From Clostridiaceae bacterium (GTDB lineage: Bacteria; Bacillota; Clostridia; JAAYHZ01), in the NCBI GenBank assembly GCA_012744235.1, contig JAAYHZ010000071.1:1-32249 (forward strand): a DNA stretch of 32,249 nt. Direction: 5' to 3'. The notes under the pieces are model-generated. The model was not told the DNA's origin, did no database searches, and saw only the letters and a list, made by a program, of their open reading frames with translations. A program made the position numbers and the translations under genes. Shown here piece by piece: positions 24,799 through 32,249 of this stretch (its first letter is position 1; each line of letters starts with the position of its first letter).

Positions 24799-26295
<1,497 letters not shown>

Positions 26296-26406
26296 AGTCT
26301 TATTGACTGTATAATTGTCGATTAAGTGAATATATATATAGAAATTGAAACCGGTTCGAGGTCCGGTAAAATCCGGCTGAAACAACAAGCATTACTAGGA
26401 AAGATA

Positions 26407-26435
26407 TTGACAAACTGCTCATGCGTTTCTATAAT
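26407..26435 (+). promoter_or_regulatory. Consensus sigma-A promoter before greA
   Basis: TTGACA (26407-26412), 17-base spacer, TATAAT (26430-26435). Transcription would begin near 26442, only about 17 bases before the hairpin at 26459. Confidence 0.8.
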
Positions 26436-26458
26436 GAATGTGCCTGTTGTTTTGAAGG

Positions 26459-26482
26459 AAACCCGGTAAACGGGTTTTTATT
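26459..26482 (+). terminator. Terminator-like hairpin between the greA promoter and greA
   Basis: AAACCCG (26459-26465), five-base loop, CGGGTTT (26471-26477), then TTATTT. It stands between the promoter and the greA start, so it could act as an attenuator, or as the guaB terminator that greA transcripts must pass. Confidence 0.65.
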
Positions 26483-26511
26483 TGATTGATTAAAAGAAGG
26501 GTGAAATAAAC

Positions 26512-26988
26512 ATGCTAAAAAAAGAAGTATATCTAACTCCTGAAGGGTTGCGTCAATTGGAAGAAGAATTGGAATACCTGAAAAGTACAAAACGCCGGGA
26601 GGTAGCCGCGAGAATAAAACATGCACTGTCTTTCGGAGATATTTCGGAAAACTCCGAATACGACGAAGCTAAAAACGAGCAAGCCTTGGTCGAAGCAAAA
26701 ATTGCGGAGATTGAAGATACATTAAGATACTCACAAATAATCGTTGATGAAGACATTACCACCGATGCGGTCAGCATTGGAAGCATCGTCAAGCTCCTTG
26801 ATTTGGAATTTGACGAAGAAGTGGAATACAGGATCGTCGGTTCCACCGAAGCTAATCCGTCAAAGAATCGTATATCCAACGAATCGCCTGTCGGAAAAGC
26901 GCTTATGGGCAAAAAGGTGGGCGAAACGGTGGAAGTCATGACTCCCGGCGGAATTGTCAAATTCAAGATTCTGGGTATCGGCAAGTAA
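26512..26988 (+). CDS. greA: Transcription elongation factor GreA, 158 aa
   Basis: Rescues backtracked RNA polymerase by stimulating transcript cleavage. The N-terminal coiled coil (about residues 1-75) carries [20 protein letters not shown], then [17 protein letters not shown], whose Asp and Glu at the hairpin tip reach the polymerase active site. The C-terminal FKBP-like domain has [41 protein letters not shown] and a final [11 protein letters not shown]. Length is exactly that of the family. The ATG at 26512 is behind GAAGGGTG. It sits before lysS, a common clostridial order, but a terminator and a new promoter lie between them. Confidence 0.97.
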
Positions 26989-26998
26989 CCTGAAAAAG

Positions 26999-27023
26999 AA
27001 GAAGGCTTGCCTTCTTTTTTTTT
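26999..27023 (+). terminator. Intrinsic terminator of greA
   Basis: AAGAAGG (26999-27005), CTTG loop, CCTTCTT (27010-27016), then an unbroken T-run to 27023. Confidence 0.88.
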
Positions 27024-27052
27024 GACCGAACCTTTTAGACGTCCCAAGATGA

Positions 27053-27061
27053 TGGTATAAT
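27053..27061 (+). promoter_or_regulatory. Extended -10 promoter of lysS
   Basis: TGGTATAAT, with no good -35 at the normal distance. 36 bases before the ATG at 27097. Confidence 0.65.
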
Positions 27062-27096
27062 GATAAAATAGGAAAAGTTTATCGGAGGAGTATGGA

Positions 27097-28602
27097 ATGA
27101 CCGAGAATAACGAAATTCGAGAGAATAACATTCAGCAAGAAGATTTAAATGAAATACTAAGAGTGCGAAGAGAAAAGCTTTTGGAATTGCAAAGGACGGG
27201 AAAAGACCCCTTTGAACAAGTCAAATATGAAGTAACGGCAAAAAGCAGCGAGATTATAGAAGAGTTTGAAACAAGAGAAGGACAAACGGTATCCGTCGCC
27301 GGAAGGCTGATGTCGAAAAGAGGAATGGGGAAGGTTTCCTTTTGCGATTTGCACGACCGCTACGGCAAAATCCAGCTGTATATCCGCATGAACGATGTGG
27401 GAGAAGAAAAGTATGCGGAATTTAAAAAATACGATATCGGCGACATCGTCGGTGTCAAAGGGGAAGTGTTCAAGACCCAAAAGGGTGAAATCTCCATTAA
27501 GGTCAGCGACATTGTCATGCTGTCGAAAAGCTTGCAGCCCTTACCGGAAAAATGGCACGGTTTAAAGGATACGGATTTACGTTATCGCCAGCGTTATTTG
27601 GATTTGCTGGTGAACCCCGAAGTGAAAAATATTTTTGTTACCCGCAGCAGAATAATTAAAGAAATCCGAAGATTTTTGGATGATAGAGAGTTCTTGGAAG
27701 TGGAAACGCCCATTTTGAACCCGATTCCGGGAGGAGCGGCGGCAAGACCGTTTATAACCCATCATAATGCTTTGGATATGGACTTGTATCTGCGTATCGC
27801 TCCCGAATTGTATTTAAAACGATTGATTATCGGCGGCATGGAACGGGTCTATGAAATCGGGAGAATGTTCCGAAACGAAGGGATATCGGTAAAGCACAAT
27901 CCGGAATTCACCATGATGGAGCTGTACCAAGCCTACGCCGATTATCATGATATGATGAAATTGACGGAAGATATGGTATCCACCGTAGCCCAAAAGGTTC
28001 TCGGTACATGCCAAATCACCTACCAAGGCGTGTCCGTGGATTTGACGCCGCCTTGGCGCAGATTGACCATGTTGGATGCGGTGAAAGAATACGGCGGTAT
28101 TGACTTCGACAAATTGAGTGATCCCGAAGAGATTAAGGCGGCGTTAAAGCACAAAGGAATCGAAACCGAAGGGAATATCGGTTGGGGAGAAGCGTTGGCT
28201 TTGGCCTTCGAAGAGCTGGTAGAGCATCATTTGATACAACCTACCTTCATCTACGATTATCCCATTGAGATTTCTCCTTTAACGAAAAAGAAATATTCAA
28301 GACCGGGATTAACGGAACGATTTGAAATTTTTATATGCGGAAGAGAGTACGGCAATGCGTACAGCGAGCTGAACGATCCCATTGATCAAAAAGAGCGTTT
28401 TGACGACCAGATGAGAAAACGACAAGCCGGTGACGAGGAAGCCAACATGGAGGACAAGGATTACTTGCTGGCCATGGAATACGGCCTGCCGCCGACCGGA
28501 GGACTTGGGATCGGTATCGACCGTTTGGTTATGCTTTTGACCGATTCCTATTCCATCCGCGATGTCATACTATTTCCCACCATGAGGTTAAAAGACATGT
28601 AA
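27097..28602 (+). CDS. lysS: Lysyl-tRNA synthetase, class II, 501 aa
   Basis: Charges tRNA-Lys. The N-terminal OB-fold anticodon-binding domain (about residues 60-160) includes [18 protein letters not shown] and [11 protein letters not shown]. The catalytic domain has motif 1 in [25 protein letters not shown]-type sequence (here beginning [16 protein letters not shown]), [19 protein letters not shown], motif 2 [18 protein letters not shown] and motif 3 [15 protein letters not shown]. The ATG at 27097 lies behind GGAGGAG (27084-27090). No T-box is seen in its short leader. The length is typical of bacterial LysRS. A promoter for the next gene starts directly after its stop. Confidence 0.97.
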
Positions 28603-28619
28603 AGCGGATGTAGTATAAT
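28592..28619 (+). promoter_or_regulatory. Promoter of the J-like membrane protein gene
   Basis: AAGACA (28592-28597, overlapping the end of lysS), 16-base spacer, TATAAT (28614-28619). It is followed by GGAGGG (28631-28636) and an ATG at 28644. Confidence 0.65.
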
Positions 28620-28643
28620 AAAAGAGGATAGGAGGGTGATAGG

Positions 28644-28697
28644 ATGCTGGAAAATAAGAGCAAAGGCCTTAATCGGCAGGAGCAAGAGCGAGAATAG
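28644..28697 (+). CDS. 17-codon ORF in frame with the J-like gene (interrupted N-terminus or leader peptide)
   Basis: ATG at 28644, seven bases after GGAGGG, encodes MLENKSKGLNRQEQERE and stops at TAG (28695-28697). The J-like reading frame continues in the same phase with ELLRKSYEILG. Charged, helix-like residues on both sides of the TAG read as one continuous N-terminus, so this looks like the first exon-like part of one gene with a nonsense codon rather than an independent peptide. A translational leader cannot be excluded. Confidence 0.5.
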   Translation: MLENKSKGLNRQEQERE

Positions 28698-28700
28698 GAG

Positions 28701-29654
28701 TTGCTCCGTAAGTCTTATGAGATACTGGGGATAGAAGAAGGCGCCGATGAAGAAACCGTAAAGAAAACATATACGGTATTGCTGAAAAAATATCGAGGCA
28801 ATCAAGAAAAAATCGATGAGCTTGATGACGCCTACAACCGTATAATGGGTTATTACGTGGTGGACGAAGAAGAAGAGAAGTATGCCAAAAGCGGTGCCGG
28901 GAAGTTTAAAAACTTCTGGTATCACTACAAAGTTCCTGTGCTGGTCCTAATCGCGACGACGTTTGCGTTGGTGGTACTTGTTATCAATTCCATTCAAACC
29001 GTACCCAACGATGTCAACCTCCATTTTATCGGCGATTTATACGTAAGGGACATCAACGAAGTTTACGACGATGTGTACGAGCATTTGACCAATGCAAAAG
29101 CGCCTAACGTGGAGCAACTGATGCTGGAAAGCGAAACCGTATTGGACGCCCAATTCGTTGCGGATGCTCGCATGAAGCTGATGTCATTAATCGCATCGGG
29201 GAATTTGGACGTTATCGTATGCGACGGAAAAACCTTCACTTATCTGGCTTCTCAGGGAATGTTTATGCCCTTGGATGTAGAAAAGGATGAGGAAGGCCGG
29301 ATTCACGTATCCGATGCAACGCCAAGATCGGGAAATTTAAAATTGGACAGTACGTTGAATCAGGCTGCCGGAAAAGAGGAAGAAACCTCCCAAAGCCAAA
29401 CCGAAAAATCGGAAAAACGAGACGACGATTATCTCGTATACGCAAAGAACAACTTGGGCGAAGAGTATTTATTCGGTATTCGGTTGGAAGAGTCGAAGTT
29501 TTTTACCGGCACCAACATAATGGGTACGGATTTGACATTAGCGTTATTCCATCAGCCTAGCAATTACAAATTGGCATTCGAATTGGTGGATCTCTTGTTG
29601 AATTTTGACCCGGCATCCGTTGAAACCGAAGATATCGAAGATGATTGGGAGTGA
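28701..29654 (+). CDS. J-domain-like single-pass membrane protein, about 317 aa from TTG; in-frame TAG upstream
   Basis: Function unknown. The start of the protein resembles a J domain: SYEILGIEEGADEETVKKTYTVLLKKY, then a helix ELDDAYNRIMGYY, but the HPD motif is absent (KKYRGNQEK), so DnaK stimulation is unlikely. One membrane helix lies at about residues 78-98 (VPVLVLIATTFALVVLVINS), then an extracytoplasmic domain with VNLHFIGDLYVRDINEVYDD, DVIVCDGKTFTYLASQGMFMPL, a Gln/Ser/Glu/Lys linker and a last LAFELVDLLLNFD. The start is uncertain: the only clean ribosome site (GGAGGG, 28631-28636) serves the ATG at 28644, whose frame is this one but meets TAG at 28695-28697. The TTG at 28701 abuts AGGAG with no spacing. 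The gene may be nonsense-interrupted, read through, or reinitiated. Confidence 0.75.
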   Translation: MLRKSYEILGIEEGADEETVKKTYTVLLKKYRGNQEKIDELDDAYNRIMGYYVVDEEEEKYAKSGAGKFKNFWYHYKVPVLVLIATTFALVVLVINSIQTVPNDVNLHFIGDLYVRDINEVYDDVYEHLTNAKAPNVEQLMLESETVLDAQFVADARMKLMSLIASGNLDVIVCDGKTFTYLASQGMFMPLDVEKDEEGRIHVSDATPRSGNLKLDSTLNQAAGKEEETSQSQTEKSEKRDDDYLVYAKNNLGEEYLFGIRLEESKFFTGTNIMGTDLTLALFHQPSNYKLAFELVDLLLNFDPASVETEDIEDDWE

Positions 29655-29691
29655 TTTTGGCAATAATATTTCACGGTTTCAAAAAAAAATA

Positions 29692-29720
29692 TTGACATAT
29701 ACCTTTCCGTGTGGTAGTGT
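29692..29720 (+). promoter_or_regulatory. Sigma-A promoter of the rpmG-secE-nusG-rplKA operon
   Basis: TTGACA (29692-29697), 17-base spacer, TAGTGT (29715-29720) preceded by TGG (extended -10). The -10 lies inside the left arm of the terminator hairpin at 29707-29739. Confidence 0.75.
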
Positions 29721-29754
29721 AGTGATGCTACTCACACGGAAGCTCTTTTTTTTT
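29707..29754 (+). terminator. Terminator of the J-like gene, overlapping the rpmG promoter
   Basis: CCGTGTGGTAG (29707-29717) pairs with CTACTCACACGG (29728-29739) with one bulged T, ten-base loop, AAGCTC, then nine T (29746-29754). Strong intrinsic terminator. Confidence 0.85.
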
Positions 29755-29791
29755 GTGTAGAGATAATAGTGTGTACGGAGGTGTCACTTTA

Positions 29792-29941
29792 ATGAGAGAG
29801 AATATTATTTTAGCTTGCACGGACTGCAAACAAAGAAATTACATTACAAAAAAAGATAAGAGGAAACATCCGGATAGAATAGAACTGAAAAAATACTGCA
29901 AATTTTGCCGTAAGCATACCGTTCACAGAGAAACCCGTTAA
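29792..29941 (+). CDS. rpmG: 50S ribosomal protein L33, 49 aa
   Basis: Small large-subunit protein near the E site. [17 protein letters not shown], a basic loop [10 protein letters not shown], then [18 protein letters not shown] match the family; the two CxxC pairs (CTDC, CKFC) make this the zinc-binding (C+) form. The start is ATG at 29792, nine bases after GGAGGTG (29777-29783); the frame upstream has other possible starts but no ribosome site. First gene of the rpmG-secE-nusG-rplK-rplA cluster, in the order usual for Firmicutes. Confidence 0.96.
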
Positions 29942-30003
29942 GACATTAAAGGAGAGTATCGTATCCGGTATTTCGGAAAAATGCAGGATAGGAGTTGTTT
30001 TAT

Positions 30004-30270
30004 ATGGCTGATAAGGTTAACAAAAAAAGTGAAAAAAGCGCCGCAAGAAAAAAAGCAAGTCTGAAGTTCTTTAAAGATATTGTTAAAAATACCATACTGA
30101 AGTTCTTTAAAGATATTCGAAGCGAACTGAAAAAGGTAACTTGGCTATCATGGCCTAAGCTTGTTAAAAATACCATAACGGTTATTGCGGCATGCCTGGT
30201 TATCGGGATTGTCATTTGGATTTTTGATGCGGCGATCAGCAAAGTCATAACATGGTCGCTTTTACGGTAA
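30004..30270 (+). CDS. secE: Preprotein translocase subunit SecE, 88 aa, with an internal 12-residue duplication
   Basis: Essential small subunit of the SecYEG channel. A Lys-rich N-terminus, an amphipathic cytosolic helix with the conserved FFKDIRSELKKVTWLSWPKLV, and one C-terminal membrane helix (ITVIAACLVIGIVIWIFDAA) are all seen. The ATG at 30004 is nine bases after GGAG (29991-29994). Unusual: LKFFKDIVKNTI immediately precedes LKFFKDIRSEL. At DNA level 21 bases (30061-30081) recur at 30097-30117, and the 15 bases between the copies (30082-30096) recur exactly at 30163-30177, where they encode VKNTI before the membrane helix. The extra 12 residues extend the N-terminal helix region and leave the essential core intact. 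Confidence 0.94.
   Translation: MADKVNKKSEKSAARKKASLKFFKDIVKNTILKFFKDIRSELKKVTWLSWPKLVKNTITVIAACLVIGIVIWIFDAAISKVITWSLLR
30061..30177 (+). repeat. Composite repeats inside secE
   Basis: A 21-base direct repeat (30061-30081 and 30097-30117) and a 15-base direct repeat (30082-30096 and 30163-30177), together explaining a 36-base in-frame insertion. Confidence 0.9.
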
Positions 30271-30324
30271 TGGCATTTAAAGTCGTGTATACCCGGATGA
30301 TAAACACAATGAGGCCCGTAATAC

Positions 30325-30933
30325 ATGTTTTTTGATGATATACCTGAAGAAAATATTAACGTACCGGAAGAAAAGGACGATCTGGCGGTATTTTCGGCTG
30401 AAGAGAAATCGAGTTTAGCCGACGAAGCCAAATGGTACGTGATTCATACGTATTCAGGGTATGAGAATAAAGTTAAAGCGAACCTGGAAAAGATAGTAGA
30501 AAACAGAAACATGCAGGACTACATTGTCGATATCGTTGTTCCGATGGAAAAGCATCAGGAAGTGAAGGATGGAAAAACAAAGATTACATTTAAAAAGATC
30601 TATCCGGGGTATGTGCTTGTCAAAATGGTAATGACGGATGAATCCTGGTATGTAGTACGAAATACCAGAGGTGTAACCGGGTTTGTAGGTCCCGGCTCGA
30701 AGCCCGTTCCTCTGAGCGAAGAAGAGATGGTCAATATGGGCGTTGAAGTCGTAGAGACGGTTCTGAACTTTGAAGTAGGAGATAATGTCAGAGTTATTTC
30801 CGGTCCTTTGGAAAACTTTATCGGCGTAGTGACGGAAATTAATCCGGAACGAATGAAGGTGAGAGTATCGGTTTCCATGTTTGGAAGAGATACTCCCGTG
30901 GAACTTGACTACAACCAAGTTCAAATTCTGTAA
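30325..30933 (+). CDS. nusG: Transcription termination/antitermination protein NusG, 202 aa
   Basis: Binds RNA polymerase and modulates pausing. The NGN domain starts at AKWYVIHTYSGYENKVKANL (about residue 36) and includes IVDIVVPMEKHQEV, KKIYPGYVLVKMVM and TRGVTGFVGPGSKPVPL. The C-terminal KOW domain has FEVGDNVRVISGPLENFIG and PVELDYNQVQ. An acidic N-terminal extension of about 33 residues (FDDIPEENINVPEEKDD) precedes the usual start; the ATG at 30325 is ten bases after GAGG, and there is no ATG near the core domain, so the extension appears real. It is 54 bases after secE. A short hairpin separates it from rplK. Confidence 0.96.
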   Translation: MFFDDIPEENINVPEEKDDLAVFSAEEKSSLADEAKWYVIHTYSGYENKVKANLEKIVENRNMQDYIVDIVVPMEKHQEVKDGKTKITFKKIYPGYVLVKMVMTDESWYVVRNTRGVTGFVGPGSKPVPLSEEEMVNMGVEVVETVLNFEVGDNVRVISGPLENFIGVVTEINPERMKVRVSVSMFGRDTPVELDYNQVQIL

Positions 30934-30944
30934 TGTAGGTATCG

Positions 30945-30962
30945 ACAAATCCTTTGATTTGT
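30945..30962 (+). promoter_or_regulatory. Hairpin between nusG and rplK
   Basis: ACAAATC, CTTT loop, GATTTGT: a 7-bp perfect stem without an immediate T-run. It may be an RNA processing or regulatory structure in the rplK leader. Confidence 0.4.
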
Positions 30963-31005
30963 TAATATAAAGTAAGTAATTAAAATTTTTTTGGGAGGTG
31001 GACTC

Positions 31006-31431
31006 ATGGCTAAAAAAGTCTTAGGTTACATTAAGCTCCAGATTCCCGGAGGGAAAGCGACTCCGGCTCCACCGGTTGGACCAGCTCTTGGACAATATGG
31101 CGTGAACATCATGCAATTTACCAAAGAGTTTAACGCAAGAACAAGTGGCGATTTGGGAACCATTATACCTGTAGTTATTACGGTATATGCGGATCGTTCG
31201 TTTACTTTTATTACGAAAACTCCGCCGGCGGCTGTATTAATTAAACAAGCGTGCTAATTGGAAAAAGGTTCAGGCGAACCGAAATCAAACAAAGTTGCAA
31301 CTCTCACGAAAGCGCAACTGCGTGAAATTGCAGAAAAGAAGATGCCGGATTTGAATGCTGCTAGTATTGAAGCGGCAATGTCTATGATAGCCGGAACGGC
31401 TCGCAGCATGGGCGTTGTTGTAGAAGACTAA
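31006..31431 (+). pseudogene. rplK: 50S ribosomal protein L11 gene interrupted by an in-frame TAA at codon 84
   Basis: L11 organises the GTPase-associated centre with 23S rRNA and is needed for RelA-type stringent signalling. The ATG at 31006 follows GGGAGGTG. Residues 1-83 are a clean N-terminal domain ([49 protein letters not shown]). Codon 84 is TAA (31255-31257). The same frame then encodes the intact C-terminal domain, [17 protein letters not shown] then [18 protein letters not shown] and [12 protein letters not shown], ending at TAA 31429-31431. Total length is 141 codons, exactly that of L11, so no bases are gained or lost. A single substitution from AAA, GAA or CAA would explain it. 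A TTG directly after the stop (31258) could restart the C-terminal domain but has no visible SD. Sequencing error is the main alternative. Confidence 0.92.
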
Positions 31432-31444
31432 CTTGTTTTCAACA

Positions 31445-31472
31445 GTGGGAGGGGTTTCCCGAATAATACCAC
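31445..31472 (+). promoter_or_regulatory. Probable L1-binding autoregulatory site upstream of rplA
   Basis: GTGG (31445-31448) pairs with CCAC (31469-31472), enclosing GGGG/CCC (31451-31460). The GTGGGAGG...CCG...ACCACA layout just before the SD AAAGGAG resembles the L1-binding mRNA element of Firmicute rplKA operons, which mimics the L1 site on 23S rRNA. Confidence 0.65.
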
Positions 31473-31488
31473 AAAGGAGTGAAGTTAT

Positions 31489-32184
31489 ATGAAGAGAAGT
31501 AAAAGATATATTCAGGCGTTAAATAGTTTTGACAAAACAAAGCTTTATGAAATGAACGAAGCTTTCGATATTATCAAAAGCTTGCCCGGTACGAAGTTTG
31601 ATGAAAGCGTGGAATTGCATATACGTTTAGGCGTCGACTCGAGACATGCCGACCAGCAGGTTCGTGGTGCCGTTGTTCTGCCCCATGGAACAGGTAAACA
31701 ACCGAGAGTTTTGGTATTTGCCAAAGGCGAAAAAGCAACGGAAGCTCAAAATGCCGGAGCGGATTATGTAGGCGATGACGACTTGGCGGAAAAAATCCAA
31801 AAAGAAAACTGGTTCGAATTTGACGTAGTGGTTGCTACGCCGGATATGATGAAGGTTGTCGGTCGTTTGGGAAGAATCTTAGGACCGAAGGGTTTGATGC
31901 CCAACCCGAAGGCCGGTACGGTTACTATGGATATCGGCAAAGCCGTCGAAGAAGTTAAAGCAGGTAAAGTGGAATATCGTTTGGACAAGAACAACATTAT
32001 CCACTGCATCATCGGCAAGAAGTCCTTCGAAAAGGAAAAGCTGATTGAAAACTTAAAGACCTTGATCGATGCCGTTGTTAAAGCAAAACCGGCTGCAGCA
32101 AAAGGTAAGTATTTGAGAAGTGTCGTATTGGCTACTTCAATGAGCCCCGGTGTTAAGTTAAATACCAACACACTGGTTGAATAG
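31489..32184 (+). CDS. rplA: 50S ribosomal protein L1, 231 aa
   Basis: Forms the mobile L1 stalk at the E site and represses its own operon. [20 protein letters not shown] starts the protein; [81 protein letters not shown] and [17 protein letters not shown] are all family hallmarks, and the end ([15 protein letters not shown]) is complete. The ATG at 31489 lies nine bases after AAAGGAG. It follows the interrupted rplK by 57 bases. It stops with TAG (32182-32184), then another in-frame TAA two codons later, so TAG functions as a normal stop here. Confidence 0.98.
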
Positions 32185-32201
32185 AAATTTTAAAAAATCG
32201 A

Positions 32202-32230
32202 TTGCTTTTTGAAAACAACTGATGTATAAT
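32202..32230 (+). promoter_or_regulatory. Promoter expected for rplJ-rplL, with the start of the L10 leader
   Basis: TTGCTT (32202-32207), 17-base spacer, TATAAT (32225-32230) with an adjacent TG. The last 19 bases would begin the L10 leader; its body lies beyond the window. Confidence 0.7.
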
Positions 32231-32249
32231 GGCACACGGTACTATAGAC

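Follow-up and report, generated by a model that had tools for sequence, protein, structure and literature searches.

The window, the whole stretch of 32,249 nucleotides analysed here, is contig C439 of a draft genome (G000; 467 contigs, 3.39 Mb, 95% complete) and carries a gene for a J-like membrane protein 3′ of lysS. Close comparison was possible with one genome, G001, the single same-genus genome returned by the search for relatives; positions 24839–32249 of the window are common to both at 75% DNA identity. The genes guaB, greA, rpmG, secE, nusG and rplA were named by eye from their proteins, and lysS and rplK also by Pfam. In secE, a 36-base insertion relative to G001 (30083–30118) keeps the frame, and CTGAAGTTCTTTAAAGATATT and GTTAAAAATACCATA are each present twice nearby; it may represent either a template switch or an assembly fault. 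The promoter-like site directly before the Shine-Dalgarno (SD) sequence of the J-like gene, lying across the end of lysS, is one of three found by the motif scan against a shuffle mean of 2.4, a number no better than chance, and by eye no TATAAT was seen at the aligned place in G001. Features and stop sites are collected in Table 1.

Table 1. Features of the J-like gene region in the window and in-frame stop sites found in the two genomes (locus:position for the latter).
Feature	Position	Strand	Basis
lysS, 5′ neighbour of the J-like gene	27097–28602	+	Pfam tRNA-synt_2
Promoter-like AAGACA-16-TATAAT	28592–28619	+	motif scan
SD AGGAGG of the upstream ATG, followed by GTGATAGG	28630–28635	+	sequence; similar SD and GGTGATA aligned in G001
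Open frame of 17 codons beginning at the ATG and closed by the TAG (MLENKSKGLNRQEQERE); extends the J-like protein N-terminally or forms a short leader	28644–28694	+	
In-frame TAG	28695–28697	+	sequence; G001 orthologue open
J-like membrane protein frame, TTG to TGA, 317 aa	28701–29654	+	weak Pfam DnaJ match, predicted three-helix N-terminus, 63% identity to G001
rplK (ribosomal protein L11), in-frame TAA at 31255–31257, codon 84	31006–31431	+	Pfam; sense codon in G001
G000 stops counted with a domain across them	L067:11888, L068:4051, L071:7233, L075:209, L075:5347, L082:2772, L108:1357, L117:5367, L130:3672, L145:487		Pfam
G001 stop counted with a domain across it	L180:6118		Pfam
G000 stop sites open in G001	L082:4329, L068:4051, L071:7233, L075:209, L075:5347, L105:7492, L108:1357, L145:487, L067:11888		G001 search

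The protein resembles DnaJ and other J-domain proteins (PF00226) in its helix pattern and its YEILG-type domain start, but its Pfam score of 21.7 bits lies below the curated cut-off of 27.8. J-domain proteins carry an HPD motif between helices II and III; here that motif is missing from the loop and KKYRGNQEK stands in its place. Because of the sub-cut-off score and the absence of HPD, the protein is termed J-like only. The structure predicted from the TTG, which was based on a two-sequence alignment and is usable for the first 50 residues, with the remainder unreliable, contains three helices (H2-9, H17-30 and H35-49) with pLDDT values of 67–80 over those residues, and the TTG form is thus predicted to hold a complete three-helix J-like domain. 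A hydrophobic stretch after the J-like part, VPVLVLIATTFALVVLVI, was judged by eye to be a membrane segment. The G001 orthologue is 63% identical over 314 residues and is likewise sited after lysS, and by orthology and this position the window protein belongs with the lysS-linked J-like membrane proteins of Clostridia, with which it shares a J-like N-terminus, a hydrophobic segment and a frame of ∼260–330 aa; to our knowledge the family has no name. Measured from the TTG, the gene differs from its G001 counterpart with pN 0.22 and pS 0.81 over 314 codons, a comparison that shows long-term constraint on this remainder of the gene; synonymous sites are saturated in it, and it therefore does not date the TAG. 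A second, short J-like protein, related to approximately the first 70 residues of the window protein, is present in both genomes (L020, G000 C456:7612–7812, an open frame of 79 aa; L021, G001 C53, 77 aa).

At the start of the gene, the SD AGGAGG is followed after an 8-nt spacer by ATG 28644–28646, whose frame meets TAG 28695 and, after a GAG and TTG 28701, remains open as far as TGA 29652–29654, as the original prediction had described. Its assessment of TTG 28701 as a poor start is likewise borne out: an AGGAG at 28696–28700 abuts this codon with zero spacer, and a second AGGAG at 28678–28682 lies 18 nt away, which is too far, so that the properly spaced SD expected before the restart codon of a gene controlled by reinitiation is absent here. 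In G001 the orthologue starts with ATG at the aligned place, preceded by GAGGAGGAAAGGTGATA, and reads MQEDKNSAQQEDKLKYYQILG with no stop; an in-frame GTG is also present two codons before that ATG. Because the orthologue has the aligned ATG, a similar SD and no stop, ATG 28644 is more than a chance occurrence, in agreement with its earlier designation as the best start, and the comparison points to it as the likely real or ancestral start of the gene, very likely inherited. Since G001 is open at this place, the TAG probably represents a nonsense codon. As to the proposal that it replaces Glu, Gln or Lys, the alignments of the poorly conserved extension are gapped and inconsistent (the DNA alignment to G001 requires gaps of 18 nt and 6 nt, and a second alignment pairs the residues differently), which leaves the residue opposite the TAG ambiguous. 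No second copy of the locus with a variant base was found when one was sought in the assembly.

More distant relatives were compared at 25 loci, namely 29 of 30 loci (L223 was left out) minus G001, the window and two loci without a frame (L210 and L229). With starts picked by eye, and the range also counted by eye, the conserved J-domain position is preceded by 10–14 residues in 24 of the 25 relatives and by 28 in one (L232); the TTG form of the window protein has 10 residues there. Five relatives of a single genus (L204, L209, L211, L213 and L214) appear to use TTG starts, in their case with an SD. Of 27 loci, the window and G001 included, 16 have a lysS-like motif 5′ of the J-like gene. The extension is thus interrupted by TAG in the window, uninterrupted in G001 and absent from 24 of the 25 others; it is therefore found in the window's genus and one other relative, the J-like domain does not need it, and loss of the N-terminal tail would probably be harmless. 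The original prediction had set orthologues starting at the position of the TTG as evidence against itself, and on this point the relatives divide: the 24 distant ones start within a few codons of it, but the nearest, G001, does not. That the ATG frame is unused, the gene having always started at TTG 28701 with the upstream SD and ATG present by chance, would agree with most relatives in the class, but the SD and ATG are kept in G001 with the frame open from that ATG, and TTG 28701 has no SD at a proper distance; this account is very unlikely.

If the TAG is real, the ATG would open a 17-codon leader and stopped ribosomes would restart at TTG 28701 to make a shorter functional protein, either after a recent harmless nonsense mutation or as a fixed short form. 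The positions at which the relatives start, the TTG starts in the genus of five and the three predicted helices of the TTG form all agree with this account. A review of bacterial reinitiation (PMC5972666) describes restarts near stops as common and as dependent on an SD before the restart codon. The window resembles the cases treated there in having a stop a few bases before a possible start but differs in that the SD of the restart codon has no spacer, and the nearest orthologue uses the ATG. We hold restart at the TTG to be possible and the main rival of the reading preferred below, though less probable than it.

A scan of the two genomes for similar lesions was prompted by the in-frame TAA in rplK, 2.6 kb from the TAG of the J-like gene. 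The same six-frame scan, which required coding-like sequence on both sides of a stop, was applied to 634,296 non-N bases of G000 and 568,998 of G001. In G000, the scan began with 20 contigs that had matches to tRNAs, release factors or J-like proteins; the other stretches were arbitrary or had tRNA matches. The scan returned 58 in-frame stops in G000 and 43 in G001, many of them evidently gene junctions, and hits without an SD-preceded start nearby numbered 32 and 20, respectively. Each of these 32 and 20 hits was searched against Pfam, X being written for the stop, and was counted if one domain spanned the stop and reached 10 or more residues to either side of it; hits with an SD-preceded start were left out of this test (24 of 26 in G000 and all 23 in G001). 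A domain extends across the stop in 10 of 32 cases in G000 as against 1 of 20 in G001 (binomial P 0.009 for the base share). The match at L067 lies just below the Pfam cut-off (22.4 vs 22.9 bits) and that at L117 has a long insert. An eleventh spanning match in G000, L116:5840, was excluded manually because it is a YbeY-Cdd gene junction. Among the 20 G000 stretches that went to Pfam first, no domain was found across the stop in L075:3758, L083, L111, L125, L149:11589 or L158, and in L065 only 7 residues of the domain precede it; none of the 16 G000 stretches given to Pfam later was counted. Beyond the count, Pfam also places a domain across the stop in a dikinase piece (L082:4329, TGA) and in rplK, and the interruption of YchF (L105:7492, TAA), whose stop falls between Pfam domains, was seen by alignment to G001. 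Neither rplK nor L158 was a hit of the six-frame scan. A scan by coding score with one fixed threshold gave 0 matches in G001, which was ascribed to lower scores there, and that comparison was dropped.

A search of G001 with 12 interrupted segments gave 19 match rows. Nine are strong matches (49–89% identity), and in none of the nine is there a stop inside; the other ten are weaker paralogues, three of which, weak AraC paralogues, report stops inside. Three of the 12 segments lacked an orthologue-level match there. Frame switches without a start show no excess (6 in G000 vs 7 in G001), which argues that the lesions are of the substitution type and speaks against indels from long reads and against old pseudogenes. 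Premature stops from base errors are known from draft assemblies, an example being the gene-fragmenting errors treated in a report on long-read assemblies (PMC12007338), in which indels matter most; G000 is similar in that genes intact in relatives contain in-frame stops, but differs in that indel-type frame switches are not in excess.

The excess of like lesions within the same assembly, which is what base errors would leave, also removes the need for a special explanation such as restart at the TTG, and it bears on the proposal that read-through at the TAG, whether programmed or dependent on a suppressor, controls the amount of J-like protein. The open, constrained frame 3′ of the TAG and the in-frame stops in several other genes agree with read-through. 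However, the stop is not conserved among relatives as such a site would be, being absent from G001, with the 25 others mostly without the extension, and the stray stops of G000 include TAA, TAG and TGA and fall in other ordinary genes. TAG is a normal gene end in this genome: the ends of 349 long G000 frames comprise 225 TAA, 61 TAG and 63 TGA. The gene for release factor 1 (prfA) is present and intact from its ATG; an apparent TGA inside it is located before the ATG and hence is no lesion. No PylS match above the cut-off was found in G000, one of two weak sub-cut-off matches being the window's own lysS, and no CTA, TTA or TCA anticodon occurs in the tRNAs read by ARAGORN, a set that is incomplete, several ordinary tRNAs being missing from it too, so that this absence counts for little (30 of 33 matches had ARAGORN-read loci, two truncated matches were unread, and further stretches were scanned). 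At ten sites, the nine strong matches and rplK, G001 carries seven kinds of residue (Leu, Lys, Asn, Ser, Cys, Tyr and Glu), and for this reason no single re-reading of the stops would account for them; with all three stops ending long frames, stop reassignment was ruled out. Ochre-type suppression of TAA and TAG only was considered since TGA is found at one of 14 sites (the ten Pfam cases, L082:4329, rplK, L105 and the J-like gene) and gave no signal: random substitution predicts 22–25% TGA, and one or fewer in 14 has P 0.10–0.16. The absence of transition-type nonsense at 8 sites, a number set by hand, has P 0.02–0.33 depending on the bias assumed and was not used. The suggestion of read-through control thus fares poorly; there is nothing specific in favour of programmed read-through, and we consider it highly improbable.

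The frame, its SD and a start common to the window and G001 are observed directly, as is the excess of in-frame stops in the sampled part of G000. From these observations we infer that the excess is due to base errors and that the TAG of the J-like gene is among them. On the reading we prefer, to which we assign a probability of little more than one half (about 0.52), the J-like gene 3′ of lysS starts at ATG 28644, and TAG 28695 would be a stray wrong consensus base, belonging to the many nonsense errors of one base that are spread through the 467-contig assembly. The frame would then probably be open in the living cell, and the product would be an ordinary lysS-linked J-like membrane protein without HPD, whose J-like domain follows a charged N-terminal tail that is short and variable. 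Because similar stray stops occur in other ordinary genes of the same draft genome, the TAG looks like an ordinary lesion, either a wrong base or a nonsense mutation, rather than a control signal. A counterpoint to error is that the N-terminal tail holding the TAG is tolerant, and a genuine nonsense mutation would do least harm there as well. The genes with a stop, possibly including rplK, are presumably for the most part not strictly essential, and real gene decay is for that reason possible. The least probable account is that functional genes of the lineage really do contain many nonsense codons, TAA, TAG and TGA alike, tolerated via leaky termination, general suppression or frequent restarts, and that in the J-like gene, a mild instance, the stop removes nothing but a dispensable tail.

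Extrapolated from the scan, stray in-frame stops in G000 may be perhaps of the order of 15–20 per million bases, and the chief lesson is one of caution: a lone interrupted gene in this assembly should not be taken for biology unless reads support it. Were the stops genuine, their toleration in ordinary genes would make this bacterium a striking example of weak translation termination.
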